Shown here one piece after another: positions 9,161-25,776 of a stretch of 64,000 bases of DNA (the first letter of the stretch is position 1; each line of letters starts with the position of its first letter). The stretch spans positions 248,001 to 312,000 of the forward strand of contig NZ_JAIUCY010000002.1 of the NCBI RefSeq assembly GCF_020179755.1, read 5' to 3'. The stretch is from Herbaspirillum sp. alder98 (GTDB lineage: Bacteria > Pseudomonadota > Gammaproteobacteria > Burkholderiales > Burkholderiaceae_D). The translations under genes were made by a program, and so were the position numbers. Under the pieces are notes generated by a model. It saw nothing but the letters and a program-made list of their open reading frames with translations. It was not told where the DNA came from and did not search any database.

Positions 9161-9193
9161 ACCTCCCCCCCGTCAAATAAGCGATGTGCACGA

Positions 9194-9221
9194 TGGGTGG
9201 CAGGTGCTGCAGCAAAGTTCC
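9194..9221 (-). promoter_or_regulatory. Hrp box (HrpL-type ECF sigma promoter) of the candidate effector gene
   Basis: Read on the minus strand: GGAACT, a 15-nt spacer, then CCACCCA, ending 33 nt before the ATG at 9160. The established HrpL consensus is GGAACC, 15-16 nt, CCACNNA; only the last base of the first element differs and the spacing is exact. The site is intergenic, in the correct orientation and at a sensible distance. Confidence 0.72.
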
Positions 9222-9242
9222 ATTCGGGGCGCGTGGTTTGAC

Positions 9243-10895
9243 TCAATACATCACGCTACGCGGCTCGTAAGGCTTGCCGTTGATGCGCCGCAGTCCATTG
9301 AAAAAATCCTCCCGCAGGAAACCGTCGCTGAGGATGTCGCGGGCAGGGCGGTAGTAGCTCGATTGAATCCCCAGCAATGCCATCATCGTATGTTCGAGAT
9401 GATCGGTCTGGTAGGGCCGGTGCTCCAGCTGCGCCTTTTCGTCCACGCTTTTCGCCACGAATGAGCGGGTCCACATGAACATCGGTATTTCATAGCCGGA
9501 CGCATCGGCCACGGATTGGCCGGCATGGTCGCGGGTATGTCCCACTTCCTGCGCGTGGTCCGAGCTGAACAGCACGCTGGCGTGGCGGTCAGGATGGGCG
9601 CGCATCACCCGTTGCACCATGTTGGCCACCACGAAATCGTTGTATGCGATGGCGTTGTCGTATTCGTCGCGTTGCTGGCGCACCCACATCGAGCGACCGG
9701 CGCTGGTCAATTGCTCGCTCACCAAGTCGCGCACGCCTTCGAATCGGGAAAATCCCTGCGGATAACGCATGTCGTAGGTAGGGTGTGCCCCCAGCAGGTG
9801 GACCACGATGAATTTCTTCGGTGTCGGGTCGTCGAGCGCCCGTTCCAGGCCGGGCAGCAGGTTGCCGTCGTAGTTGTTCTCGCCACGACCGGCGCCGCGG
9901 TTGATGAACACCTGTTCGTCGGCGCGGCCCGACACCAGCCCCAGCCAGCCGTCATTGGGCACCTGGTTGGAAATCCAGAAGGTCCGGTAGCCGGCCTCCC
10001 TGGCCAGCATCAGCATGTCGGGCTTGCTGCTCCAGGCCAGCGGGTCGTTCAGATCGGCGGGGGTGAGCATCTTCATCAGCGACGACATCGTCGCCGGTTC
10101 CGACGACACCACATCCCTGAACACGATCAGGTCGCGCCGCATGGCGTCCAGCATCGGCGTGGTGTTGCGGGAGTAACCATACAACGACATGTTGTTGCGG
10201 TTGATGCTCTCGCCGATGATCCATACCACGGTGTTGGCGTCCGGCCCCTGGTATCGCACCTGCCACTGCGAGCGATGGGCCATGCTGCGCGCGACATTGC
10301 GCTGCATATCCTGTGCCTGCGCCAGTTGCGCCTGGTAGTCGAGATAACGGATCGGCCAGAACAGAAGCGGGTTTTCCTTGGCCATGGTGGGGTTGAAGTG
10401 CAGCGCCAGGAACACCGTGAGCAAGCTGCCGATGGTCACCATGCCGCCACGGCCGATGGCCGGCGGGGTCTCGCTGCGCGACAGCCGACGCTCGGCCCAG
10501 CAGATGGCCAATGCCACCAGGGCGAACGCCGCCACCGCTTGCGCCAGGTCGCGCCAGTTATGGCGCAGGAATTCGCTGGTCTCGGCCGGATTGGAGTTGA
10601 AGATCGCCTGCAGCACCAGGATCGGGTTGGGGCGCAAGCCGAAGTGGTCGCGCAGGAAACCCTTGATGGCGGCATCCAGGAAGAACAGCAGGATGATCAG
10701 CAGGCTGGCGCCGGACAGCCAGCGCGGTCTGTTTCGACAATAAGGAATAACAATCAGCAGGCCGGCGATCCCCGGCAGGCTGGTGGCCATCAACACGCTG
10801 CTCTTGGCCAGTTCATTGGCGCTGAGCATGCCCAGGGCCCAAAAGAAGAACATGCCGGCCAATCCTAGCCAAAGCCGATTCATTAACTGTTTCAC
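9243..10895 (-). CDS. Phosphoethanolamine transferase-like inner-membrane sulfatase-fold enzyme (EptA/CptA family)
   Basis: Predicted to transfer phosphoethanolamine to lipid A or core sugar at the periplasmic face. About five N-terminal membrane helices (residues 1-170) precede an alkaline-phosphatase-fold domain. Catalytic marks: VWIIGESINRNNMSLYGYSRNTTP (Glu metal ligand and the conserved GYxRNTTP), the nucleophile region SSEPATMSSLMKML with the expected Thr, VVHLLGAHPTYD, and the metal-binding SSDHAQEVG. Start taken as the GTG at 10893-10895, which has GGAAAG a few bases upstream; an ATG four codons in (10883) lacks a ribosome site. 550 aa is family length. The candidate effector gene follows it. 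Confidence 0.88.
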   Translation of the reverse strand: MKQLMNRLWLGLAGMFFFWALGMLSANELAKSSVLMATSLPGIAGLLIVIPYCRNRPRWLSGASLLIILLFFLDAAIKGFLRDHFGLRPNPILVLQAIFNSNPAETSEFLRHNWRDLAQAVAAFALVALAICWAERRLSRSETPPAIGRGGMVTIGSLLTVFLALHFNPTMAKENPLLFWPIRYLDYQAQLAQAQDMQRNVARSMAHRSQWQVRYQGPDANTVVWIIGESINRNNMSLYGYSRNTTPMLDAMRRDLIVFRDVVSSEPATMSSLMKMLTPADLNDPLAWSSKPDMLMLAREAGYRTFWISNQVPNDGWLGLVSGRADEQVFINRGAGRGENNYDGNLLPGLERALDDPTPKKFIVVHLLGAHPTYDMRYPQGFSRFEGVRDLVSEQLTSAGRSMWVRQQRDEYDNAIAYNDFVVANMVQRVMRAHPDRHASVLFSSDHAQEVGHTRDHAGQSVADASGYEIPMFMWTRSFVAKSVDEKAQLEHRPYQTDHLEHTMMALLGIQSSYYRPARDILSDGFLREDFFNGLRRINGKPYEPRSVMY

Positions 10896-11118
10896 ACAAG
10901 CACTTTCCGCCGTCCCGCCGGCCTTTTGGATAACATGGCGTCGCCCCCAGCAACGCCCAATCCCCCTCGACTAAACGTGAGCCGTCGACATCATAACCAA
11001 AGATGCGAGAGCGCACGCGGCCCTTATGACAGGGCCTTCAGGAAAAAGTGCGCAAGAAAATAATCCGAGCACAAAAAAATCTTTGGCGCCGCCTCATGCT
11101 CAGGTAAAATGCCGGTTC

Positions 11119-12020: not shown

Positions 12021-12121
12021 ACACTTATAAATTAACCTCCGTCGCCTTCGCGGAGAGGCCCGGGTACATTCTTGTAACAGGGCACTCGCCTCTAAGCCCG
12101 GTGGCTTATCAATCAACTTCA

Positions 12122-12364: not shown

Positions 12365-14107
12365 TTGCTTGTCCAAAATAGAAAATATAAGTGCGCCAAA
12401 GTGGGGGCTGCACTGTGGTTGTTGGTGTCTTGTCATGTGGGTTCAGCGCAAACGGTGCAGACGGGGGACAGCGAAGAGCAGCGACGGCGCGCCCGCGCTG
12501 AAGCTTCAGAACGCGAACGTCAGCTGAATGCGCCTAAAGTTGATTTACAGGAAACGGTCGAAGCACCGGACTCCTTAACCCTTCCAACGCAATCGCCGTG
12601 CTTCACGATCGACAGTTTCGTGCTGCGCGTGCCCGAGCAGCTTCCCGCAGCGGCGCATGCCGCCGGCGCCAGCGCCTTGCAGCAGGATCCTTTCCGCTTC
12701 GCGCAGCAATACCTGGAGCAATATACCGGCGCCTGCATTGGCCGTGATGGCCTGAACCTGATCGTCAAGCGCCTCACTGCGTTGATCCTGTCAAAGGGGT
12801 ACAGCACGACCCGCCTGGGTATCCCGGCGCAGGACTTGTCCTCGCGCCAGCTGGAACTGACACTGGTGCCGGGCCTGATCCGCTCCATCAAGTTTTCAGC
12901 CGAGGCAGATAGCGCGAACTGGAAAAATGCCTTTCCTACCGGCCCTGGCCAGTTGCTGAACCTGCGCGATCTCGAGCAGGGACTGGAGCAGATGAAGCGC
13001 GTGCCAACCCAGGACGTGGCGATGGAAATCGTGCCCGGCGAACTGCCCGGCGAGAGCGATGTGGTCATCAACGTCAAGCGCGTGAAACCCTGGAGGCTCA
13101 CGCTGTCACTCGATGACAGCGGCGCCAAGGGCACCGGCAAGCTGCAAAGCAGCGCCAATTTCGCCTGGGACAACGCCCTTGGCCTGAACGACCTGTTCAA
13201 TGTCGGCGTCAACACCGACGCCGATCGCCGCGGGCAGCAGCGCGGCACCACCGGCGGCAATGTCTATTATTCGATTCCCTACGGTTATTGGACCTTCTCT
13301 GCTGCTGCCAGCACGTTCTCGTATCACCAGCAGATAGCGGGCCTGTTCCAGACCTTCGTCTCCAGCGGCAAGAGTCGTAACCTGGAGTTCACGGTCCAGC
13401 GCCTGTTCTACCGCGACCAGTTCGCCAAGCACAGCGTGCAGTTCAAGGTGGCCAAGCGCTGGAGCCGGTCTTACATCGACGATACCGAGATCGAGGTGCA
13501 GCGTCGCAATACCACCTTCGCCGAACTGGCCTGGGTGCATACGCGCTACATCGGTGATGCGCAGTTCAACCTGGTGCTGGCCAATCGCTGGGGCGTGTCG
13601 TGGTTCAACGGCCAGCCCGACCTTGAACCGCGTCTGTCTGACGCGCCCACCCACCGCTATACCTTGCAGACCGTCGACGCCAGCCTGTATGCCCCGTTCA
13701 AGCTGGGCGGCCAGCCGTTCGCCTACATCGGTGCATTGCGCGGGCAGAACACCCAGTCCACGCTTTTCCTGTCGGAGCAGTTCTCGATCGGCAACCGTTA
13801 TACGGTGCGCGGCTTCGATGGCGAACAGACGCTGGCGGCCGAGCGCGGTGTCTATCTGAGAAATGAAATCGAGATGCCATTGGGGGGCAGTCGCCAGGCG
13901 CTCTACGTGGGTCTGGATGCGGGACGGGTGTTTGGTCCCGGTGCCCAAACCCTGCTCGGCACCACGATGGCGGGGGCCGCTATCGGCATGCGCGGCAACG
14001 CCGGTGGCGTGCGCTATGACGTCTTTGCCGGATGGGCGCTGGTCAAGCCAGATGGCCTCAAGACGGCCACGCCGTCAGCCGGTTTCAGCATCAGCTACCA
14101 ATACTAA
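12365..14107 (+). CDS. FhaC/ShlB-type outer-membrane transporter (TpsB) of a two-partner secretion system
   Basis: Omp85-superfamily pore that exports the large FhaB-like protein encoded next. Visible: signal peptide (ALWLLVSCHVGSAQ), a charged N-terminal helix region (RRARAEASERERQL), two POTRA domains (CFTIDSFVLRV; LVPGLIRSIKF and VINVKRVKPWRLTLSLDD), then a 16-strand barrel containing the hallmark loop-6 motif VRGF (NRYTVRGFDGE) and ending SISYQY. 580 aa is typical. Start is uncertain: a TTG at 12365 after ACGGGGTG, or a GTG about 12 codons later; both keep the signal peptide. The stop is 18 bp before the fhaB-like ATG. Confidence 0.93.
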   Translation: MLVQNRKYKCAKVGAALWLLVSCHVGSAQTVQTGDSEEQRRRARAEASERERQLNAPKVDLQETVEAPDSLTLPTQSPCFTIDSFVLRVPEQLPAAAHAAGASALQQDPFRFAQQYLEQYTGACIGRDGLNLIVKRLTALILSKGYSTTRLGIPAQDLSSRQLELTLVPGLIRSIKFSAEADSANWKNAFPTGPGQLLNLRDLEQGLEQMKRVPTQDVAMEIVPGELPGESDVVINVKRVKPWRLTLSLDDSGAKGTGKLQSSANFAWDNALGLNDLFNVGVNTDADRRGQQRGTTGGNVYYSIPYGYWTFSAAASTFSYHQQIAGLFQTFVSSGKSRNLEFTVQRLFYRDQFAKHSVQFKVAKRWSRSYIDDTEIEVQRRNTTFAELAWVHTRYIGDAQFNLVLANRWGVSWFNGQPDLEPRLSDAPTHRYTLQTVDASLYAPFKLGGQPFAYIGALRGQNTQSTLFLSEQFSIGNRYTVRGFDGEQTLAAERGVYLRNEIEMPLGGSRQALYVGLDAGRVFGPGAQTLLGTTMAGAAIGMRGNAGGVRYDVFAGWALVKPDGLKTATPSAGFSISYQY

Positions 14108-14125: not shown

Positions 14126-17100
14126 ATGAACAAGAAAGCATATCGAATCGTGTTCAATGCGCATCGGGGCGCATTGATGGTGGTGGCCGAGAACGGCTCA
14201 GGGGATCGCGGCAATGGCGCGCGGGGCGCCGTCGACGCTGCCGGCGCGGAGCCGTTGCGTCCCGCCAGGAGCATGCGCCTGGCGCAGGTGGCGGTCTTTG
14301 TCTGTGCGTTGTTCGGTGGCGTGACGGTGGTGTCGGCCCAGATCGTGGCCGACCGCAATGCGGCCACCCGGCCCGTGGTCGACCAGTCGGCCAACGGTTT
14401 GCCGGTGGTGCAGATCGTGACACCGAATGCCGCGGGCGTATCGCACAATCGCTACGACCAGTTCAACGTCGCCAGGGGCGGCGCCATCCTCAATAACGCA
14501 ACCACGTACACCCAGACGCAGCAGGCAGGTTATATCGCTGCCAACGCGGCGCTGGTCGCGGGCAGCGCGCGCGTCATCCTTAACGAAGTCACCGGCGCCT
14601 CGCGCAGCCAGTTGAACGGTTTCATCGAAGTCGCCGGCCAGCGCGCCGAAGTGATCGTGGCGAACCCCAACGGCATCTCGTGCAGCAATTGCGGCTTCAT
14701 CAACACCAGTCGCGGTACCTTGACCACGGGGTCGCCAGAGTTCGCCGGCGATGGCAGCGTGGCTAATTTGCGCGTGACGCGGGGCGATATCAGCATCGGC
14801 AGCGGCGGCATGAACGCCTCCAGCCTGGACCAGGTTGATCTCATCGCCCGCAGCGTGCAAGTCAACGGCGAGCTATGGGGCAAGCAGCTCAATGTGATCA
14901 GCGGCGCCAACCTGGTGAGTTATGCCAACCTCGGCGTACAGGTGATCGGGGGCCAAGGCACACAACCTACGGTCGGTATCGACCTGGCCCAGATGGGCGG
15001 CATGTACGCGAACCGGATCCGACTGGTGGGCACCGAGAGCGGCGTCGGCGTGCGCAGCATGGGTAATATCGCCGCGCAGGCCGGCGACATCAACATCGAC
15101 AGCCGTGGCATGCTGACACTGGGTGGCAGCACGACAGCCAGCGGCAACATCGCTATTGCCGGTGAGAGCAATGTCGCGAACAGTGGCAACCTCTATGCAG
15201 GGCAGGCGGCCCGGATTAACGCTGCCGGCGCGCTGGACAACACCGGTGTCATCGCCGCCAGGACCGACGTTACCGTGCAGGCGCACGACATCAAGTCGTC
15301 CAACTCGATCGCCGCCGGCATCGACGCTTCGGGCAATGCGGCCAACAACGGCAACCTGACGCTGACTGCCGCCACCGACATCGATAACACTGGTGGCAAT
15401 CTCTACGCCAAGGACAACTTGCTGCTGCGCGCTGGCGCCAACCTGAGCAACGTCAATGGCGTCATCCATAGCGACGGCAATCTTGACGTGGCGGCCAGCG
15501 GCGCCTTGAAGAACAACGGCGGGCGCATCGAAGCCGGCGGCAGTGCCGCGACATTCGACCTGGCCGCCGCCAGCATCGACAACAGCGACGGCAAGATCGC
15601 CAACAGCGGCAGCGGGTTGACACAGATCGACGGTGGCGCGCAGATTCTTAACGCCAACAATGCACGGGTGGCCAACACTGGTGTGATCGGTGGCAACGGC
15701 GACGTGAAACTGACCAGCCAGGCGATCAACAACGGGCAGGGCGCACAGGTGCTGGTGGGCAACGACCTGTCGCTGCAGGTTGCCTCGCTGGACAACCAAG
15801 GCGACATCAGTGCGACACGCGACCTGAACGTCAATGTGACCAATGGGTTCACCAGCACCGACACCAGTTCGCTCAGCGCCGTGCGCAATCTCAATCTGAC
15901 CGCCAACAGTGTTGACAACAACGGACTGATCAACAGTGGTGCCACGACAGTGGTTCGGGCCGCGACCAGCTTGCACAATACCGGCAAGATCTATGGCGAA
16001 GACATTGCATTAGGCGGGCAGAACTTCACCAACAACGTCAACACGGCAACCAACGTGGCCGGTGTCGTGGCCGCACGCAACAGCGTGCAGATCGGCGCGG
16101 ACCAGGTAACCAACAGCGAGCACGCCTTGCTGCAAAGCCTGGGCGACATGACCATTGCCGGCGCATTGGACGGCAACAACCAGGCCACCGGCAGCGCCAC
16201 CAGCATCATCAACGAATCGGCAACGATCGACGCCGGTGGCGCGCTGAGCCTGCAGACGGCTACGCTGATCAATCGCAACAATCACTTCAGCACCACGCTG
16301 CAGGACGATGCCGCGCTGACCCGATACGTGACCCAATATGCCAACTGGGCGGCCCCTAACACCTGGTACGACGCCAATCAGGTCAGTTGGAGCGACAGCG
16401 GTGGTGGCGGCATCGTGCTGGTGATCCCGGACGGCAACCGCTTCGAACAATTCTACAAACGCGACTATGTCGAGGTGGTGCAGAAGACCGTGGTGCTCAG
16501 TAGTGATCCGGGCCGCATCAGTTCTGGCGGCAACATGCTGCTCTCCGGCAGCGTGACCAACGACAAGAGCGTGATGATTGCGGGCGGCACCTTGTCGGGC
16601 TCGGTGGGGGCCATCGACAACATCGGCGCCACCGGGACGCAGACCACCATCTGGCACATGACTGCCGGACAAAACTATTACCACTGGGTCAGCGGCCATC
16701 CGCACACCAACTATTACACCTATAACAACGGCGGTGCGGCCTATGACAACGTCATGGCGTCGGCCACGCTGGACTTGCCGGTGGCGAGCGTGCAGCAGAA
16801 TGCCACGCCTGCGGGAATCAGCAACCCGGCCCTGAGCGCTGGCGCGCCCGGAGGGACCGGCGTTGGCGCCGGCGGATTGCCGCATTTCTCGATTCCCAAC
16901 AGCGGCCTGTTCACGGTACGTAACCAGCCAGGACAGAACTACCTGATCGAGACGGACCCGAAATTCACCGACTACAAGACCTTCATCTCCAGCGACTACA
17001 TGCTGGGCCGGATGACGCTCGACCCGCAGATTACCCAAAAGCGGCTGGGCGATGGCTTTTACGAACAGAAGCTGATCACCGACCAGGTGGCCGAACTGAC

Positions 17101-20100
17101 TGGCAAGCGCATGCTCGACGGTTACGTCTCTGCCGAGGACCAGTACAAGGCGCTGATGGATTCCGGCGTAGCCAGCGCATCGCGCTTCCAGCTGACGCCA
17201 GGCATCGCATTGAGCGATGCGCAGATCGCGGCGCTGACCTCCGATATCGTGTGGCTGGTGGAGCAGGATGTAAAACTGCCTGACGGCACCACCACCAAGG
17301 CACTGACGCCGGTGGTGTACCTGAGCCGCGCCAGCACCGAAGATATCAAGCCTGCCGGAACCTTGATCGCCGGTAAGGACATCGACCTGAAGGTCAGCGG
17401 CACGCTGGACAACGGCGGTATCTTGCTGGCGTCGAATAACTCGGTGGTGCAGGCGACCGACATTCATAACACGGGCAGCATTGCCAGCTCATCTACCACG
17501 GGCAGTGTCGCGTTGACGGCCACCAACGACGTAGAGAGCAGCGGCAACATCAGCGGCAACCGGGTTGGCATCCTGGCTGGGCGCGATGTGAATCTGGTGA
17601 CCACCACCGCGTCGAACATGACGCATGATGGCTTGAATACCAAGGTTGATCAGGTCAGTAGTGTCAATGCGGGGCAGTTGGCGATTCAGGCGGGGCGGGA
17701 TATCAATGCGGTGGCGGCATCTGTTCAGAGCAGTGGCGATGCGGTTCTGGTTGCCAATCGCGATATCAATCTCGGGACGGTGAAGACCAGGGATAGTTAC
17801 GACGTTACCTTCGATAGCCAAAACCATCTCTACACGAGCAATACCCAGGTAGCGGGTTCCAGCATTGGCACGACCGGGGCCTTGACGATGTCGGCCGGGC
17901 AGGACATCAATGCGCAAGCCGCCTACGCCAATTCTGGCGGCGCACTGGTCGCTGCTGCAGGCAGAAACATCGATCTCGGCGCCGCACAACAGGAAACGAC
18001 GGTCGACCAGGCGATCTATACGACCAGCAAGGGTCTTTTGTCTTCGTCGAGCAGCCGTTCGCAGCGGGATATCGCGACCACCACCAGCGTTGGCACGACT
18101 TTCTCGGGGGATAGCGTGCAGATAGCTGCCGGCAACGATCTCACGGTGACCGGCAGTAACGTCGTCGGTACGAATGACGTGACACTGGCTGCGAATAACA
18201 ACGTCAATATCGTTACCTCCAAAGACACCAATAACAACCGTTTTCAAAGCGAAGAAAAGACGTCCGGTCTCTTCAGCGGTGGCAGCTTCGGCGTAACCAT
18301 GGGCAGCAAGTCGCTCGAAACAGAGCAGGCAAGCAAGCAGGTCACCAATAACGCCAGCACGGTCGGCAGCACCGGCGGCAGCATCTCGATCGTTGCCGGC
18401 AATGGTTATTCGCAGTTGGGCAGCAATGTGATGGCGCCGTCAGGCGATATCAGCATCCTCGCCAAGAAGGTAGATATCCTGGCCGCCTATGACACCCAGG
18501 CAAGCACGCAGGACATGGTGTTCAAGCAGAGTGGGCTCACGTTGCAGATCACCAGCCCCATCATTTCTGCCATCCAGACGGCGCAGCAGATGAAGAAGGC
18601 GGCTGAAAGTACTTCCGATTCGCGGATGCAATTGCTGGCGGCGGCCAATGTCGGCTTTGCGGCAAACAACGCTGTCGATGCAGTCAAGGCTGGGCAGGGT
18701 GTTGCTGTCGCTGGAAAAGACAACCCACAAATCTTGACCAACGCCAAGAATGAAGACGGAACGCTCAAGACCAATGCCGATGGCACGCCTGAAACCCGCG
18801 ATGCGACTGCGGCAGATCAGGCCGGTGGCATCAATCTGGCCATCAGCATAGGCGGCAGCAAGAGTGAGAGCCATTCTGCGCAGAGCGCTTCGACCGTGCG
18901 AGGCTCGGCTGTCGCCGCCGGTGGCAACGTCACCATTGCGGCACAAGGCGGCGGGACTGACAGCAATATCGTCGTCCAGGGCAGTGATATCAAGGCAGGC
19001 GGCAACACAACACTGAAGGCCGACAACGCGGTCCAGTTGCTGGCTGCCCAAAGCACGACAGAACAGCACAGCAGTAACAAGGCCATGTCGGGTTCAATCG
19101 GTATTTCGATTGGTACAGACGGGCTGTTACTCAACGCAGGCTTGTCGGGAAGCCGTGGTCGCGGCGATGGCAATGACGTCACGCAGACAGTAACGCACGT
19201 TGATGCCGGCAACACGCTGTCTATTACGTCGGGCACCGACACGACATTGAGTGGCGCCGTCGCCAGCGGCAAGCAGGTCGTGATGGATGTGGGCACCAGT
19301 GGTTCGGGCAACCTGAACATCGCCAGCCTGCAGGACACCAGTACCTACAAGAGTAATCAGCAAAGCCTGGGTGTTAGTGTGTCGTTCGGCATGGGCAAGA
19401 TGAGCGGCAGTCTCAGCGCCAGCCGCAGCAGCGTCGACGGCAACTACGCCAGCGTGATCGAACAGTCGGGCATCAATGCCGGCGATGGTGGTTTCCAGAT
19501 CAATGTGGCGGGTAATACGGCTCTCAAGGGCGCTAAGATTTCAAGCACTGAGAAAGCAGTGGCCGAAGGAAAAAATAGTTTTATTACTGATACGCTTATT
19601 CAGTCTGATATTCAAAATCGCAGTGACTACAAGGCTGAAAGTCAGAGTATAGGCGTCGGCACAGGTTATAGCGGATCCAATTTTTCGATGAACGGTGCGG
19701 GATTTGGCATGGGTGGTGCTAGTGGGAGCCAGAGTAGTGTGACGACGTCAGGAATTTCGGGTATCGCAGGAGATACCTCTGTCAGAAGCGACAAGGACAG
19801 TAGCGGAAAAATCAGCAAGGACTGGGACGGCCAGCAGTTGCAAAACGATGTGGTCGCACAGGCACAGATCACACAGATGTTCAGTAAAGAAGCAGGGAAA
19901 TCCATCGCCTCCTACTCTGCGGGAGAACGTGAGCGGTTGAAGGAAGAAATCAAGAAAGCCAAGACTGACGAAGAGAAGAACGCCTTGCAGCAAGAGATCA
20001 AAGATATAACCATGCAGGAGCGGGCACTCAATGCTTTGGTAGGATTTGTGACCGGAATGGGTACCATGGCACTCACTAAGGAAGGGATATCTACTGTTGC

Positions 20101-20746
20101 AGACAAAATGCGAGACTGGACCATCGAGGATTCAATGAAATTTCCCGGTGTAATCGATGGAGATGTGGTCCTTAGCAACCAATCCGGGCCGAGCGGCGGC
20201 ATCCGTGGCGATGATTTCAAAGCTGGCGGAGTACGTGTTGATCTGGATGCTGTTTGTGGTGTTACCAATGAGCGATGCAAGACTCAATACGATACAGACG
20301 GCGCCCAAATCCTGGACGAACGGGGTATTCCAAAATTAGCGCTTGATGCGTATGGAAGAGTGCAATTCGACAGTAAGGCTGCGGATATGTCCTTGACGGC
20401 CTTCCTGGATAAACACCCCGACGCTCAACTCATGGTGGGACCAACCGGGGGAATTCAGGGGAGCAAGGGTACCTTGTTCGGAGCTCCTTACGCGCCAGGA
20501 AGCTGGCAAGATAAGCTAATTGAATCATTTGCGGGGAGCCATGACATGCTGGGTGGCAAATGGAGCGGTCTATATGATGATCAAGGCAATATTAAGCGGA
20601 ATATGACGGATCTCGAGCGGAAGATCTACGATAATGCCGTGACGACGACGGCCTTGTTGCCAGCGACGCCGTTGGCGCTTTCGGAGTTTTTGTCACCAGC
20701 ATTGTGGAATGCGGTAGTGACAGCGTTGAAAATGGGAATCAAATGA
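14126..20746 (+). CDS. FhaB-like filamentous hemagglutinin / two-partner secretion exoprotein (TpsA), possible contact-dependent toxin carrier
   Basis: Very large secreted beta-helix protein, 2206 aa, exported by the upstream FhaC-like pore. It opens with an extended signal peptide region (MNKKAYRIVFNAHRGALMVVAE) and a hydrophobic core ending VVSAQ near residue 72. The TPS domain follows (VSHNRYDQFNV near 105; NPNGI near 181). Residues ~260-1800 are FHA-type degenerate repeats rich in Asn, Gly and Ser, with many NTGxIxA units. After about nucleotide 19530 (residue ~1800) base composition drops and a helical, charged segment appears (SAGERERLKEEIKKAKTDEEKNALQ), a hydrophobic patch (ALVGFVTGMGTMAL), and a distinct C-terminal domain with APYAPGSWQDKLIESFAGSHDML. 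No VENN motif is present. Adhesion is the safe call; growth-inhibition activity is inference from the neighbourhood. Confidence 0.93.
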   Translation: MNKKAYRIVFNAHRGALMVVAENGSGDRGNGARGAVDAAGAEPLRPARSMRLAQVAVFVCALFGGVTVVSAQIVADRNAATRPVVDQSANGLPVVQIVTPNAAGVSHNRYDQFNVARGGAILNNATTYTQTQQAGYIAANAALVAGSARVILNEVTGASRSQLNGFIEVAGQRAEVIVANPNGISCSNCGFINTSRGTLTTGSPEFAGDGSVANLRVTRGDISIGSGGMNASSLDQVDLIARSVQVNGELWGKQLNVISGANLVSYANLGVQVIGGQGTQPTVGIDLAQMGGMYANRIRLVGTESGVGVRSMGNIAAQAGDINIDSRGMLTLGGSTTASGNIAIAGESNVANSGNLYAGQAARINAAGALDNTGVIAARTDVTVQAHDIKSSNSIAAGIDASGNAANNGNLTLTAATDIDNTGGNLYAKDNLLLRAGANLSNVNGVIHSDGNLDVAASGALKNNGGRIEAGGSAATFDLAAASIDNSDGKIANSGSGLTQIDGGAQILNANNARVANTGVIGGNGDVKLTSQAINNGQGAQVLVGNDLSLQVASLDNQGDISATRDLNVNVTNGFTSTDTSSLSAVRNLNLTANSVDNNGLINSGATTVVRAATSLHNTGKIYGEDIALGGQNFTNNVNTATNVAGVVAARNSVQIGADQVTNSEHALLQSLGDMTIAGALDGNNQATGSATSIINESATIDAGGALSLQTATLINRNNHFSTTLQDDAALTRYVTQYANWAAPNTWYDANQVSWSDSGGGGIVLVIPDGNRFEQFYKRDYVEVVQKTVVLSSDPGRISSGGNMLLSGSVTNDKSVMIAGGTLSGSVGAIDNIGATGTQTTIWHMTAGQNYYHWVSGHPHTNYYTYNNGGAAYDNVMASATLDLPVASVQQNATPAGISNPALSAGAPGGTGVGAGGLPHFSIPNSGLFTVRNQPGQNYLIETDPKFTDYKTFISSDYMLGRMTLDPQITQKRLGDGFYEQKLITDQVAELTGKRMLDGYVSAEDQYKALMDSGVASASRFQLTPGIALSDAQIAALTSDIVWLVEQDVKLPDGTTTKALTPVVYLSRASTEDIKPAGTLIAGKDIDLKVSGTLDNGGILLASNNSVVQATDIHNTGSIASSSTTGSVALTATNDVESSGNISGNRVGILAGRDVNLVTTTASNMTHDGLNTKVDQVSSVNAGQLAIQAGRDINAVAASVQSSGDAVLVANRDINLGTVKTRDSYDVTFDSQNHLYTSNTQVAGSSIGTTGALTMSAGQDINAQAAYANSGGALVAAAGRNIDLGAAQQETTVDQAIYTTSKGLLSSSSSRSQRDIATTTSVGTTFSGDSVQIAAGNDLTVTGSNVVGTNDVTLAANNNVNIVTSKDTNNNRFQSEEKTSGLFSGGSFGVTMGSKSLETEQASKQVTNNASTVGSTGGSISIVAGNGYSQLGSNVMAPSGDISILAKKVDILAAYDTQASTQDMVFKQSGLTLQITSPIISAIQTAQQMKKAAESTSDSRMQLLAAANVGFAANNAVDAVKAGQGVAVAGKDNPQILTNAKNEDGTLKTNADGTPETRDATAADQAGGINLAISIGGSKSESHSAQSASTVRGSAVAAGGNVTIAAQGGGTDSNIVVQGSDIKAGGNTTLKADNAVQLLAAQSTTEQHSSNKAMSGSIGISIGTDGLLLNAGLSGSRGRGDGNDVTQTVTHVDAGNTLSITSGTDTTLSGAVASGKQVVMDVGTSGSGNLNIASLQDTSTYKSNQQSLGVSVSFGMGKMSGSLSASRSSVDGNYASVIEQSGINAGDGGFQINVAGNTALKGAKISSTEKAVAEGKNSFITDTLIQSDIQNRSDYKAESQSIGVGTGYSGSNFSMNGAGFGMGGASGSQSSVTTSGISGIAGDTSVRSDKDSSGKISKDWDGQQLQNDVVAQAQITQMFSKEAGKSIASYSAGERERLKEEIKKAKTDEEKNALQQEIKDITMQERALNALVGFVTGMGTMALTKEGISTVADKMRDWTIEDSMKFPGVIDGDVVLSNQSGPSGGIRGDDFKAGGVRVDLDAVCGVTNERCKTQYDTDGAQILDERGIPKLALDAYGRVQFDSKAADMSLTAFLDKHPDAQLMVGPTGGIQGSKGTLFGAPYAPGSWQDKLIESFAGSHDMLGGKWSGLYDDQGNIKRNMTDLERKIYDNAVTTTALLPATPLALSEFLSPALWNAVVTALKMGIK

Positions 20747-21153
20747 ATGGCATTTTCCGAATCGGTGTCCTCTTCGCTTCGTCCGTCATTTTTTCCGGTT
20801 GCAGTGTGTTATGCATCGGTGGGACGGCAACATGTGGCATGAGTGATGAGGCAAGATATCGGCTGCTTCATCCTAAAGCCTATGGTCAGAAGTGGGAGAA
20901 GAAAGATGCGAGCATTGAGAGCTGGCGGCAAGATTGGGTGGATTGCGGCGGGGGGGGGAACGGCAGTTATGGAGTTTACATGCCGCCCGGATCGACCTCG
21001 GAGCAAATGCAAATAGCTTACGGGGAAAAGATCAATTCATTAGATGTTTGCATGATTCAAAAAGGATACATATTTACCGGGGCATGTTACGACAATGAAA
21101 TCGGGCGAGGTTCGGTTGCGTGCCGGGGTAGAGTCCTCACGCCGTTGCGATAA
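20743..21153 (+). CDS. Small lipoprotein translationally coupled to the FhaB-like gene
   Basis: 136-aa protein with a lipoprotein signal peptide: hydrophobic run FRIGVLFASSVIFSGC with Cys at the expected lipobox site. The mature part has spaced Cys, Gly and aromatic residues (WRQDWVDCGGG, LDVCMIQKGYIFTGACYDNEIGRGS, VACRG). From memory, similar small lipoproteins occur beside FhaB proteins with this C-terminal domain; function is unknown and an immunity or surface-accessory role is speculation. The ATG at 20743 overlaps the fhaB stop as ATGA. A run of nine G at 20949-20957 could be a slippage site. Confidence 0.75.
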   Translation: MNGIFRIGVLFASSVIFSGCSVLCIGGTATCGMSDEARYRLLHPKAYGQKWEKKDASIESWRQDWVDCGGGGNGSYGVYMPPGSTSEQMQIAYGEKINSLDVCMIQKGYIFTGACYDNEIGRGSVACRGRVLTPLR

Positions 21154-21183
21154 CGGAAATCATCCAAGTAACCTGCTTTAAAC

Positions 21184-21434
21184 CCCCGTCATCCTGACGA
21201 ATTTCAGAACCCAGCGACGTCAACTGCACCTCTCCGCCGCTGGCTCAATCAAAAGAACCCCTGCGTAGGCATCCCCACACCATTAATACTCAAATTCCCC
21301 AGCGCATAAGCCCTATGCTCGGTATGGTTGTGCGAAGAAATGGTGCGGATATTGCGCCAATGCCGATCCAGGTTCAGGTGCGCCAGCGTGGCCGATGCGC
21401 CAGCGATATCTACCGCTACAACGCACATATTCAT
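21184..21434 (-). pseudogene. Acyl-CoA dehydrogenase 3'-end remnant, copy 1 (with REP-like palindrome)
   Basis: On the minus strand the frame reads the C-terminal piece of a DszC/SfnB-type acyl-CoA dehydrogenase: DIAGASATLAHLNLDRHW, then RNIRTISSHNHTEH and YALGNLSINGVGMPTQGFF. Only about 60 residues survive, with no catalytic core and no start. Beyond the stop lies a REP-like palindrome (21187 onward). The unit is repeated at 22674-22920 and 24463-24762. Confidence 0.8.
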
Positions 21435-21605
21435 TTACATTGAATGTTCTACAAACCGATTCGCCGACACGGCTCCACAGGCGACCTGTCACCTGTAGAG
21501 TTCGAGAAGCGCTACGCGCTAAATGACTTGTGAGTGTCTACTGAAGGCTGGTCGGTCCAATCAATTGACGTCAGAGTGGCATCGTGAACTAGCGGAGAAC
21601 TACTG

Positions 21606-21896
21606 GTGCAGATGATCGATTTGAAAAGAGCTTGCCGCGTTTTTCTTTATCTGGCACCTGTAGTGGGAGCAGCCAGATGCCTATTCCTATTTTTGTCTGG
21701 TCAACGTGCAGAACTACCATTTTGGATAGTTGGCGTTGCATGGGTCACCTGGATTCTCTTTGCGTATTGCTATGACAAGGATTTGCCTGCAGTAGGTCCG
21801 TTTGGTTATAACAATGGAAAAAATCAACCAGCTCGCACAATTTACACAGTAGTTATTCCGACTACGACGCTTATCGTCTTGTTCTTTTTTACTTAG
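21606..21896 (+). CDS. Small AT-rich membrane protein, unknown
   Basis: 96 aa with three likely membrane helices: VFLYLAPVVGAARCLFLFL, FWIVGVAWVTWILFAYCY and TVVIPTTTLIVLFFFT. Start is the GTG at 21606 with GGAG 8 nt upstream, or the ATG at 21612. Low GC compared with the core genes suggests transfer. It lies between repeat copies 1 and 2. Multi-helix small proteins in this position are often immunity proteins of contact-dependent systems, but there is no direct evidence here. Confidence 0.5.
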   Translation: MQMIDLKRACRVFLYLAPVVGAARCLFLFLSGQRAELPFWIVGVAWVTWILFAYCYDKDLPAVGPFGYNNGKNQPARTIYTVVIPTTTLIVLFFFT

Positions 21897-21996
21897 CTTT
21901 ATTTCTGCTGTCAAAAGTACGTCTTTACTCGCAGCCATACCCGGCAATACCTCGTACGTTTTTTCTAGATGCTGCGGTTAAAAATCAGCGTCTGAT

Positions 21997-22170
21997 ATGC
22001 AAGGTTCTACTTTTTTTATAGCAAAGAAAGGGCGCACTTTTGGTGGAAAACAAGTTGGAGTTAATTTCGGTAACACTACTTCTTTGGGCGGTTCTGTTGA
22101 TCCATATTTGATCCGGCAACAAATCCATGGGGGCGAGCAAAGAATACTTGGAATTTATTGCAAGGTGTGA
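21997..22170 (+). other. Short ORF fragment, unknown (57 codons)
   Basis: Open frame from ATG 21997 to TGA 22170 reading MQGSTFFIAKKGRTFGGKQV and then a Gly-rich stretch with SVDPYLIRQQ. No ribosome site is visible and a stop lies seven codons upstream. It may be a decayed piece of a toxin tip or unrelated; I cannot assign it. Confidence 0.25.
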
Positions 22171-22171
22171 A

Positions 22172-22432
22172 ATGAGTCTTGGCTTCGGAATTGTTGCGAT
22201 ATCACTGTTGTCGGTATTTGTTACTTATGGTTTGTTTGGAAGAAAGGTAGAGAATTCATTTCGCAGCAAGTTTTTCTATTGGTTGAAATCCACTATTCTT
22301 TTAGCGGTACTTTTATTTTTTTGGTTTGGGCACAAGGAACCAGGCGGATTTAGCTGGCTCGGCGTTTTAATGAGTTTTGGTTTATCTGGTCTGTTTAATT
22401 TATGCCGCTCGCAAATAGGGGCTGGATTATAA
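22172..22432 (+). CDS. Small AT-rich membrane protein, unknown
   Basis: 86 aa from ATG 22172, which has AAGGTG four bases upstream; a longer frame from ATG 22127 has no ribosome site. Three hydrophobic segments are predicted: FGIVAISLLSVFVTYGLF, SKFFYWLKSTILLAVLLFF and FSWLGVLMSFGLSGLF. Base composition is far more AT-rich than flanking operons. Located between repeats 1 and 2. Function unknown; an orphan immunity protein is one possibility. Confidence 0.45.
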   Translation: MSLGFGIVAISLLSVFVTYGLFGRKVENSFRSKFFYWLKSTILLAVLLFFWFGHKEPGGFSWLGVLMSFGLSGLFNLCRSQIGAGL

Positions 22433-22578
22433 AAAGTGAAGAGCTATTGGTAGACAAGGCTCCAGATGTCTGGCTGTCTGAGAATCCTCCCTTACTTAAT
22501 ACTAACGTGGCGCCTTCAGCGATTAGCGCAGCATTTGAGTTATCAGGATTTGTAGGAGGAGACGGTATCCAACCGTAA
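22402..22578 (+). other. Short ORF overlapping the previous one, unknown
   Basis: 58 codons from ATG 22402, in another frame from the preceding membrane protein and overlapping its last 31 bases. It reads MPLANRGWIIKSEELLVDKA and ends FELSGFVGGDGIQP. It could be the tail of a broken gene or a short coupled protein. No family recognised. Confidence 0.25.
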
Positions 22579-22673
22579 TTAACGGTGCTGCCGTCGTCTC
22601 AAGAGTTAGGGGCCGGTCGGCGATAGACGCCGCCAGGACGACGGCCCATATACTGGTCACCATAAGTATCTAC

Positions 22674-22920
22674 ATCCCCGTCATCCTGACGAAAGTCAGG
22701 ACCCAGTGACGTTAGCCGCGCCTCTCCGCCGCCAAACCAATCAAAAAAAACCTGCGTAGGCAACCCCACCCCATTAACACTCAAATTCCCCAACGCATAA
22801 GCCTTATGCCCGGTATGGTTGTGCGAAGAAATGGTACGAATATTGCGCCAATTCCGATCCAGGTTCAGGTGCGCCAACGTGGCCGATGCCCCAGAGATAT
22901 CAAACAGTGCCGTGATCATG
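22674..22920 (-). pseudogene. Acyl-CoA dehydrogenase 3'-end remnant, copy 2 (with REP-like palindrome)
   Basis: Minus-strand frame reads ITALFDISGASATLAHLNLD, then RNWRNIRTISSHNHTGHKAY and LGNLSVNGVGLPTQVFFDWF, matching copy 1 almost base for base through its core (22750-22901). A palindrome (22679-22702) follows the fragment just as in copy 1. The next plus-strand gene begins at the exact edge of this unit. Confidence 0.8.
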
Positions 22921-23445
22921 GAATTAATGAAAAAAAACTTTTTCTTCTCGTTGTTATGGTTTTTGATCGCTGGATCGATAGCGCCACTTGTAGCGATGTT
23001 CGGAGCGTTAAATCATATACCAGTGACTTTAATTTATTGTTCTTTTATATGGGGAAACTTATTAATTTTAAAAAGAATAGAAATTCGTTTTGAAGTCGGG
23101 AATGCGGGAAATGTAATATTTAAAAATATCTTTCTGGCGATTGGTTGTCTTATCGCGATATTTAACTTGTGGAAATTATTTTTCGCTGAATTTTTCTCTA
23201 TTTTTTTCCCTGGCAAAGAAGACCTGGCTTCTTTATTTAATATTTCCGGAGATATCATTCTAAGTATTGGATTTCTTGAGGGTATTTTGCTGTGGGGTTA
23301 TGCATCTCTTAGTTACGGGAAGAGCTCTTTTTCTAACCGGCGGAAAATATTTCTTCGTTATTTTTTGATAATAACAATGTCACTTTTCTTGCTGAATACA
23401 TTTCATCTAGATGGAAAGTGGGTGAGGGACATCTCAGGTTATTAA
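22918..23445 (+). CDS. AT-rich polytopic membrane protein, unknown
   Basis: 175 aa from ATG 22918 (or 172 from ATG 22927), with about five hydrophobic helices: FFFSLLWFLIAGSIAPLVAM, VTLIYCSFIWGNLLIL, FKNIFLAIGCLIAIFNLW, IILSIGFLEGILLWGYASL and YFLIITMSLFLLNTF. The coding start coincides with the end of repeat copy 2, as if the gene was inserted or copied in beside it. Strong AT bias. No family recognised; a membrane immunity protein is a reasonable but untested idea. Confidence 0.5.
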   Translation: MELMKKNFFFSLLWFLIAGSIAPLVAMFGALNHIPVTLIYCSFIWGNLLILKRIEIRFEVGNAGNVIFKNIFLAIGCLIAIFNLWKLFFAEFFSIFFPGKEDLASLFNISGDIILSIGFLEGILLWGYASLSYGKSSFSNRRKIFLRYFLIITMSLFLLNTFHLDGKWVRDISGY

Positions 23446-23618
23446 TTATGTGCCAACAAGGCAGGCATCCCGCTGCCTCCAGGCCAACACCGACCCAACC
23501 AATAATGCCGTAGCCGATAAAACCAAGCCTCGTTGCAAACCGCCGGCGCTATCGGCAATCCATTTATGTAATGCCCCCTAAAAGAAAACACCGTATAGCT
23601 GTCCAGGAAAAAATTAAC

Positions 23619-24101
23619 ATGGTAAAGACGAATAAACCCATGAAGGACATTTTGCCAGACGTAGAGACCATGCCTGCTTCTCTTCCTAGGGAGATGGAAG
23701 AAATTTTAACGGCAGGTTTCAACAAGGTAGAGGATGCGGTATTTTTCTCTACGCAATTTGATAGGGATTGTCTGCCTGATTCTGAATTTATAGAAAGTGC
23801 ATACACAGATTTAAGTGGATACGAATTTTCTGTAAATAAATTGCATCTGGAAGATTATTGCAACTTCCAATGTCTGCGGGCTGGCATGTTATTCACTGAT
23901 AAGTTTGTGCGCCTTTGGAGAAGCCAATTCTCTGCAAGTGCTATCGCTTTACTTAGCTATGATAAAAATCCAGACTTTGGAGAAATTTGTACTTTTCGAT
24001 TTCATAAGAAGCGAGAGGGGGAGCTAATTATTGATCTTGAAAAAATAGAAGAATTTTCAGCGCCTCTCCTCGTGGTTGATACATCCCTGTGGCGAAAGTA
24101 G
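23619..24101 (+). CDS. AT-rich soluble protein, unknown
   Basis: 160-aa acidic cytosolic protein starting at ATG 23619, with AGGAAA 8 nt upstream; earlier in-frame starts lack a ribosome site. It has no membrane or signal segment and a C-terminal half of alternating strands (AIALLSYDKNPDFGEICTFRF, ELIIDLEKIEEFSAPLLVV). Size, charge and compact fold resemble the soluble immunity proteins of polymorphic toxin systems, but I recognise no specific family. A good terminator follows at 24144. Confidence 0.5.
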   Translation: MVKTNKPMKDILPDVETMPASLPREMEEILTAGFNKVEDAVFFSTQFDRDCLPDSEFIESAYTDLSGYEFSVNKLHLEDYCNFQCLRAGMLFTDKFVRLWRSQFSASAIALLSYDKNPDFGEICTFRFHKKREGELIIDLEKIEEFSAPLLVVDTSLWRK

Positions 24102-24143
24102 ATTTTTCTCGGCGTGTGGTTAACCAATCTAGGATCGATCAGC

Positions 24144-24163
24144 GCCACCTTCGTGGCTTTTTT
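24144..24163 (+). terminator. Rho-independent terminator after the unknown soluble protein gene
   Basis: GCCAC, a CTTC turn and GTGGC followed by six T residues, 43 bp after the stop codon at 24101. Confidence 0.75.
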
Positions 24164-24211
24164 GTTATACCCATTCAGCAGCGTTAATCCACCTGTTATT
24201 TTGCACCGACG

Positions 24212-24301
24212 GTGATTGGAGTAATTGCGGTATTGATAGCGTTCATCGGTTCCTTAAGTAAATCGGAGCGACCAAAAGAGAAAGAGATGGATAAACACTA
24301 A
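24212..24301 (+). other. Possible 29-codon membrane peptide
   Basis: From GTG 24212 the frame encodes one hydrophobic helix (VIGVIAVLIAFIGSL) and a charged tail (SKSERPKEKEMDKH). There is no clear ribosome site, so it may be the end of a decayed gene. Confidence 0.2.
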
Positions 24302-24399
24302 AGAGTGCGCGGTAGTGTACTGCTCATGCTCATCATGTTTCGGCATTTGTGCAGGTGTTGCCTTCGTCTCAGCGATAAGGATCCACCGGCGATAAAAGA

Positions 24400-24430
24400 C
24401 GCTGGATCCCGGCCTTCGCCGGGACGACGG
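24400..24430. repeat. REP-like palindrome (GGCCTTCGCC-loop type)
   Basis: CCCGGC-CTTC-GCCGGG stem with GCTGGAT and ACGACGG flanks, essentially the same as the copy at 11989-12020. Confidence 0.7.
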
Positions 24431-24462
24431 CCTCCATATCGATCGCCATCAATGTCTGCACC

Positions 24463-24762
24463 TCCGTCGTCCTGACGGAAATCAGGATACTCAAATCCCC
24501 CAACGAATAAGCCTTATGCCCAGTATGGTTGCGCGAAGAAATGGTACGAGTATTGCGCCAATGCCGATCCAGGTTCCGGTGCGCTAGCGTGACCGATACG
24601 CCTGCAGTATCAAACAGCGTCGTGGCCGCATGGTGCGCAATCCGATCCACGGTGATCTTGGCTTTGGCGGCTGCAGCCGCCGCCGCTTGCAGATGCAGGT
24701 CGACATCAGGGCCGTTCTCGGCCAGCGCGGCATAGGTGTAGCTGACGCCGCAGACCCGTTCA
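24463..24762 (-). pseudogene. Acyl-CoA dehydrogenase 3'-end remnant, copy 3 (longest) with REP-like palindrome
   Basis: The longest copy: minus-strand frame from about 24762 reads ERVCGVSYTYAALAENGPDV, an Ala-rich helix, IAHHAATTLFDTAGVSVTLA, HRNLDRHWRNTRTISSRNHT and YSLGDLSIL, then runs into a palindrome (24464-24487) where copies 1 and 2 continue to GVGLPTQ. It is therefore truncated at its 3' end relative to the others but extends about 55 codons further 5'. It abuts the stop codon of the LacI-type gene. Confidence 0.8.
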
Positions 24763-25776
24763 GCCTGATCGGGGCACTGCGGTCGAGGCCCGTTCGACCA
24801 GTTCCGGGGTGGCGGTCACTCGCATCACGGGTGAGCTGCTGGTGCGGTTGATCAGGGCCAGCAGCAATTCGATCGCCATCTCGGCGGCGCTGTCGGTCGG
24901 CACCGCCACGGTGGTCAGGGCCGGGCGCGACAGGCGCGCCCATTGAATGTCGGTAATGCCAATGACTGAGATGTCGCGCGGCACCTGCAAACCGAGGTCG
25001 GCGATGGCGTTCATCGCGCCCAGCGCCGGCAGGTCATTGCTGGCGAAGATGGCGGTCAGTTGCGGGGTCGCCCTGAGCATGGCGATGGTGGCATCGTAGC
25101 CGGCCGCGACCGTGTCGGCGATGAACTGGGTGCGCTGTGGCGGATGCTTTTGTCCAGCCTCGGCGCAGGCGTCGAGAAAGCCCTGGTAGCGCTCGGCGTG
25201 GATGCCATTCTTCTTGCTGCCGACCAGCGCGCCGATCTCGCGATGCCCCAGGCCGATCAGGTGGCGTCCGGCAATGGCGCCGGCCTGCCTGAAATCGACC
25301 GCGATGCTGGGCAACTCCGGCGGCGCAGAGGGTTTTTCCCACATGCACAGCACCACCGGCGCGCCGCGCTGCTGGGTCTTCTTGAGATCGTCGATGGGCA
25401 GGTTGGCGTTCATGATCAGCACACCGTCCGACAAGGTGCCGGCAATCTGGTCGAGATAGGCGCGACCGGTCACCGGATCGTCGTTGGTATTGCAGACAAT
25501 CAGGAAGCGGCCATGCGCACGCGCGGCGCGTTCGGCCGCCAGCGCGAATTCGGGGTAGAAGGGGTTGGCGATGCTCGATACCATCAGCGCCAGCGTCGGC
25601 GCCCGGCCTTCGGCCAGCGCCCGCGCCGTCAGGTGCGGCCGATACCCCAGTTGCTCGACCGCTTCCAGTACGCGCAGCCGCGTCTGCTCGCCGACCTTTC
25701 CGCGTTGACGCAGAACATTGGAGACGGTGGCAGAGGTCACGCCGGCCAGGCGGGCTACTTCGGAGAGGGTCGTCAT
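24760..25776 (-). CDS. LacI-family transcriptional regulator (sugar ABC/GH42 operon)
   Basis: 338-aa sugar-responsive repressor. N-terminal helix-turn-helix and hinge: TLSEVARLAGVTSATVSNVL then RPHLTARAL. The periplasmic-binding-like effector domain follows (LALMVSSIANPFYPEFA, GVLIMNANLP, FASNDLPALGAMNAIADLG, ISVIGITDIQWARLSRPALTTV). It is divergent from the ABC importer and beta-galactosidase genes, whose upstream region holds a perfect LacI-type palindrome (26044-26055). Its 3' end touches the third acyl-CoA dehydrogenase remnant. Confidence 0.92.
   Translation of the reverse strand: MTTLSEVARLAGVTSATVSNVLRQRGKVGEQTRLRVLEAVEQLGYRPHLTARALAEGRAPTLALMVSSIANPFYPEFALAAERAARAHGRFLIVCNTNDDPVTGRAYLDQIAGTLSDGVLIMNANLPIDDLKKTQQRGAPVVLCMWEKPSAPPELPSIAVDFRQAGAIAGRHLIGLGHREIGALVGSKKNGIHAERYQGFLDACAEAGQKHPPQRTQFIADTVAAGYDATIAMLRATPQLTAIFASNDLPALGAMNAIADLGLQVPRDISVIGITDIQWARLSRPALTTVAVPTDSAAEMAIELLLALINRTSSSPVMRVTATPELVERASTAVPRSG

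Follow-up and report, generated by a model that had tools for sequence, protein, structure and literature searches.

The window analyzed here, a stretch of 64,000 nucleotides (nt) from Herbaspirillum sp. alder98 (positions 248001-312000 of one contig in a genome of 5.34 Mb), carries a tpsB-tpsA gene pair followed by an AT-rich interval of small open reading frames (ORFs), in which three copies of one acyl-CoA dehydrogenase (ACAD) 3' end recur. We favor, with a probability of about 0.6, the reading that this is a two-partner-secretion locus of the contact-dependent growth inhibition (CDI) type with an orphan-immunity array behind it, that toxin/immunity pairs have been displaced stepwise, and that the ACAD tails are scars marking the right ends of past insertions. 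Judged from its sequence, the array would hold a current pair plus as many as five displaced units, orf4 being unproven among them. The genes concerned are as follows.

12365..14107, plus strand: TpsB/CdiB-like outer-membrane transporter, with tblastn matches to TpsB genes adjoining TpsA in relatives
14126..20746, plus strand: TpsA/FhaB/CdiA-like exoprotein of 2206 amino acids (aa), with PF05860, PF13332, PF13018 and TIGR01901
20743..21153, plus strand: LipoImm, lipoprotein-like candidate for cognate immunity, overlapping the tpsA stop by 4 nt
21606..21896, plus strand: orf2, small membrane immunity candidate with no toxin left in front
21985..22175, plus strand: TpsA toxin-end remnant whose frame is broken close to the 3' end, matched by tblastx to the TpsA toxin end of genome G016
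22172..22432, plus strand: orf3, small membrane immunity candidate
22918..23445, plus strand: orf4, membrane ORF
23571..24101, plus strand: orf5, soluble immunity candidate
24197..24301, plus strand: decayed C-terminal fragment of a further array membrane ORF, preceding the third ACAD tail
24760..25776, minus strand: LacI-type regulator, complete, with PF00356 and PF13377, the right edge of the island

The left part of the locus has the hallmarks of CDI and two-partner secretion: a TpsB transporter beside a large exoprotein with a two-partner-secretion domain and hemagglutinin repeats, and a constant exoprotein body joined to a polymorphic C-terminal toxin region. The variable region starts at roughly residue 1885-1985. 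A 481-residue query taken from residue 1726 finds the constant part in 28 of the 34 genomes of the genus (this one among them); the matches mostly stop by query residue 260 of 481, with a few pieces reaching 277-387, and different TpsA ends are seen in loci L096, L098 and L112.

For four of the five ORFs (LipoImm, orf2, orf3 and orf5), relatives at other loci sit immediately behind TpsA-type toxin ends, which bears out the proposal of a first-pass annotation, made from the window alone, that immunity-like genes follow an FhaB-type gene here. LipoImm relatives occur in 18 of 343 family genomes, own included (17 of 342 others), and none was found in viral contigs. At 4 of the 11 loci examined (L173, L175, L176 and L179) the relative stands behind a toxin end that resembles the present TpsA end by eye, at L173 as the second of two tandem relatives; the remaining seven have short flanks or different neighbors. 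In the best explanation, the present TpsA end and LipoImm are a candidate working toxin/immunity pair.

Further downstream, orf2, orf3 and orf5 are non-cognate immunity candidates whose relatives are paired with toxins elsewhere. Relatives of orf2 are present in 10 of 383 genomes, own included; among the 14 matches in the nine other genomes, nine immediately follow a toxin ORF whose end contains GGW, two lie behind another orf2 relative and three are in other settings. The product of orf3 is 46% identical to an ORF directly behind TpsA in G016 (L096) and 66% identical to one behind a truncated toxin end in G002 (L144), relatives that come from loci fetched for TpsA or for orf2 and orf5 and not from a genome-by-genome search. 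For orf5 there are five matches elsewhere, one of them within its own genome, and two of the five lie directly behind toxin ends that are alike by eye (L145 and L112). The match in its own genome (L145, C20:61449-61889) stands directly behind a detached 162-aa toxin-like ORF, with no TpsA or TpsB match in the 19.5 kb of that locus.

One displaced toxin end is still recognizable. The remnant at 21985-22175 aligns with the G016 TpsA end in two frames (tblastx, 57% over 40 aa and 47% over 30 aa), lies directly before orf3 just as the G016 toxin end lies before its ORF, and has its frame break at the place to which the break in G002 aligns. No toxin remnant was found before orf2, orf4 or orf5; the interval had been proposed as a bank of toxin-tip modules as well as immunity genes, and a single short, frame-broken remnant does not support the former. 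The decayed fragment at 24197-24301 is 43-48% identical by tblastx to pieces in L152, L144 and L149 (best E 2.7e-4), and tblastn with the L152 ORF returns it at 8e-5. Relatives of orf2, orf3, orf5 and the decayed fragment occur together in a single array (L144) of G002, another species of the genus. That array also has a recurrent separator of different sequence, a 168-nt repeat (98%) at 8643-8810 and 12486-12653 of L144 (contig C67), behind its orf5 and orf3 relatives. Another array behind TpsA (L098 in G020, 8300-11000) contains lipoprotein-like ORFs with apparent degraded exoprotein pieces between them.

Base composition marks off the interval. GC fraction is 0.36-0.51 in 500-nt segments starting at 21500-24000, with the minimum of 0.36 at 23000 and about 0.51 in the second tail itself; it is 0.60-0.68 to the right and 0.54-0.66 over most of tpsA, whose 3' end is already at 0.49-0.52. 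The description of small low-GC ORFs between the tails accordingly stands as regards AT-richness and membrane helices (by eye), and has to be amended to admit a toxin remnant, an insertion sequence (IS) remnant and a decayed ORF fragment. On the right, lacI is matched at E <= 1e-60 in 16 of the 33 other genomes of the genus (76-91%) and has a C-terminus that is complete relative to 11 relatives; the genes downstream of it differ (by eye) in all four relatives whose genes were listed, so lacI is an edge of variable DNA. Two smaller stretches remain within the interval. Between orf3 and the next tail, 22430-22640 is an open stretch with no match better than E 0.2 among the loci examined. Between orf4 and orf5, 23456-23542 weakly resembles the end of a gene that looks by eye like a cysteine desulfurase; the match is limited to 37 nt at 78%, with no further copy in the genome, and the stretch may be a second host-gene scar. 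The contig of the window also carries another, larger FhaB-like open frame (3298 aa; G000:C18:108665-109087).

What sets the interval apart is its repeated separator, which occurs as follows.

21185..21410, minus strand: copy c1, REP-like element and ACAD 3' end, cut at 21410
21411..21561, plus strand: IS3-type element, 3' end only, joined in its interior to c1
22631..22915, minus strand: copy c2, REP-like pair and ACAD 3' end, with its cut about 3 nt short of the orf4 start
24417..24738, minus strand: copy c3, REP-like pair and the longest ACAD 3' end, without the last ACAD codons, ending about 21 nt from the lacI stop

The three copies of one ACAD 3' fragment reported in the first-pass annotation are real, and lie within about 10-30 nt of where it had placed them. 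They are diverged, 86-91% identical across their aligned parts: pairwise blastn gives 88% over 227 nt for c1-c2 (E 3e-80), 87% over 136 nt for c2-c3 (2e-45) and 86% over 125 nt for c1-c3 (1e-40), and a repeat search finds a c1-c2 core of 159 nt at 91%, with c3 at 75% across the same length. The coding part of c2 matches the ACAD C-terminal domain PF08028 (E 9.5e-6). When aligned with a 393-aa ACAD from this genus, c3 covers residues 297-382, c2 335-393 and c1 322-393, the c1 match extending beyond 21410 into the IS remnant; c3 reaches furthest inward, to 24738.

Each tail also has a palindrome-like element nearby, as had been noticed, which we take to be of the class called REP (repetitive extragenic palindrome). 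The elements start at 21187, 22679 and 24465, with at most 5 mismatches to the c2 form, and another lies at 12121; c2 and c3 additionally share 71 nt around the element at 76%. This short repeat is dispersed over many places in the genome, with at least 65 matches, 62 of them outside the three copies (40 of 119 candidates scored), and its presence near each tail is therefore ordinary.

The inner cut points are more informative, since each tail has a different one. Copy c1 runs directly into the interior of the IS at 21410/21411, c2 stops about 3 nt short of orf4, and c3 comes to within about 21 nt of the lacI stop. The outer, REP side is shared in full by c1 and c2 and in part by c3. Differing inner cuts together with such an outer side are what would be expected if each insertion carried in a right flank of its own and the joining needed no homology. 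The IS, taken to be of the IS3 type, is 90% and 89% identical to two longer copies elsewhere in the genome; a related copy (L117) has the transposase domains rve and HTH_21 and the terminal end is present, the window itself holding the remnant only.

The tails are dead DNA. Seventeen single-copy changes over 114 aligned nt fall 5/7/5 at codon positions 1/2/3, a third-position share of 0.29, compared with 0.59-0.86 across 120 triples drawn from the genes of ten relatives; none of the 120 is as low as the tails, in a test that is a small sample and whose triples overlap and are not mutually independent. The tails are also old. DNA matches to them occur in 11 of 34 genus genomes, own included: the three here and one in each of ten others, at 71-77%. 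In nine of those ten the frame holding the match runs 399-450 aa from stop to stop, and the tenth, near a contig end, is 118 aa. The tails are thus closer to one another than to any full ACAD gene found. The genome itself holds no full ACAD orthologue, its best full-length matches reaching 33-34% compared with 63-83% for the tails, and no DNA match at E <= 1e-8 was found outside the genus among 392 family genomes (two candidates scored per genome). The even spread over codon positions indicates that most of the divergence followed gene death, for which same-species donors or local duplication are better suited than three working genes of different species.

A sequence of steps that could have built the locus may be envisioned. 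Incoming DNA would pair with the conserved part of tpsA on the left, and its right end would be joined without homology, by illegitimate recombination. The old toxin end would be cut away, and its immunity gene kept and pushed downstream. In at least some events the incoming DNA may have extended beyond its immunity gene and been cut within an ACAD gene that lies convergent to it in the donor locus; the ACAD 3' end and REP element would then persist as a scar on the right-hand side of the new module. On this view the scars would be youngest at c1 and oldest at c3, beside lacI. The mechanism is inferred, including the order of events, the anchor in tpsA, the illegitimate right end and a continued protection of the cell by the orphan genes, in a comparison that covers one genome per species.

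Several observations weigh against such a history. No ACAD scar separates orf2 from orf3 or orf4 from orf5; there are more immunity units than tails, and tails therefore do not bound every module. In the 383 genomes orf4 has its own copy and two weak matches, one antisense to an ACAD tail, and no relative that marks it as an immunity gene. Sigma-70-like promoters number 2 in the interval against a mean of 6.2 in shuffles, with no excess. Copy c3 is broken on the REP side too. Between c1 and c2, 13 of 67 non-coding positions differ compared with 14 of 158 coding ones (p 0.04), a contrast not predicted for drift alone acting on one dead block. The copies carry 5 (c1), 3 (c2) and 9 (c3) changes; c3 as oldest fits and c1 above c2 does not, and the numbers are too few to order the copies. 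Of 18 ACAD loci (16 distinct places), with flanks of up to about 10 kb and some truncated by contig ends, none has a TpsA or TpsB match, and hence no donor locus with ACAD convergent to tpsA was found; a scan of named genomes gave at least 8 loci, two of them already-known places, with no TpsA or TpsB nearby among those listed.

The scars might instead have arisen locally, the ACAD-tail/REP block having been duplicated in place from one dead tail, in tandem or by copying at REP, with modules inserted later and the tails as bystanders. We consider this unlikely, although it would account for copies that resemble one another (86-91%) more than the full genes (71-77%) and that changed as dead DNA, in a genome where REP-like elements are abundant. 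Same-species donors would yield equal closeness, however, and the inner ends differ in all three copies and adjoin unrelated DNA, while the ORFs upstream of the copies come from different families. Still less probable is that the tails are working homology blocks, as the first-pass annotation had implied in proposing stepwise capture by recombination, so that homologous crossing-over between tails would exchange, add or remove modules lying between tpsA and an ACAD tail. Three direct repeats of more than 120 nt at 86-91% do flank sets of modules, and the lower divergence of the coding part could, weakly, reflect conversion between copies. Such exchange would give common ends on both sides, yet all the inner ends differ, which better fits a non-homologous right end, and the copies diverged as dead DNA.

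It is scarcely credible that the small ORFs are chance ORFs and unrelated insertions of AT-rich DNA, with no immunity genes among them. Assignment of the five to families by profile search did fail: none reached the curated cut-off in Pfam or NCBIfam and PHROGs gave nothing up to E 0.1 (PADLOC was not searched); orf4 is without relatives. The relatives directly behind toxin ends contradict this reading for four of the five, orf4 excepted. Four queries against solved structures gave no match. For orf3 against G002, pN/pS is low (0.24), but so is that of the toxin remnant used as control in the same two genomes (0.33), and the value is uninformative on selection at the orphan stage.

If stepwise displacement with right-end scars is correct, each ACAD tail would be the right scar of one insertion, providing countable junctions for the illegitimate-recombination model in arrays where the right ends of insertions are usually hard to see. 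The locus also supplies testable immunity candidates with no family name in the libraries searched. A more speculative extension, which we regard as doubtful, is that the dead ACAD/REP tail is a reusable right boundary, tails in donor and recipient allowing tpsA-anchored modules to be added, swapped or dropped; the locus would then grow and shrink stepwise, each step delimited by part of a metabolic gene and not by toxin-gene homology.

Known systems offer close parallels, as far as the available portions of the papers describe them. In the type VI secretion system (T6SS) immunity arrays of V. cholerae, successive modules displace the effector and immunity genes stay, as here, and Kirchberger et al. 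propose homology-facilitated illegitimate recombination (PMC5361080); the T6SS is not two-partner secretion, and those portions mention no recurrent non-module scar. For orphan regions of type-II cdi loci in Acinetobacter, stepwise 5'-3' displacement by illegitimate recombination has been proposed (PMC6336857). There too cdiI genes predominate over toxin remnants, whereas the tracts named are cdi-derived and the portion available mentions no host-gene scar. Meningococcal tpsA/tpsC cassettes (PMC3848433) likewise belong to a two-partner secretion toxin with cassettes and small ORFs downstream; tpsC cassettes have tpsA homology and homologous exchange, whereas the present locus yielded just the short toxin remnant. 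In orphan cdiA-CT/cdiI arrays of E. coli, Yersinia and others (PMC3150448), cdiBA-type genes are followed by orphan units, with IS elements in some; these arrays, in the text available, usually keep a cdiA-CT fragment, whereas here hardly any toxin sequence is left and a host-gene 3' end with REP is the recurrent separator. No ACAD tail in that role was found in literature on ACAD, CDI and immunity, as represented by titles and the opening of abstracts, nor in the available portions of these four array papers, in keeping with the earlier impression that it is unusual. The array is thus of a known kind, and it is the repeated host-gene scar that does look unusual.

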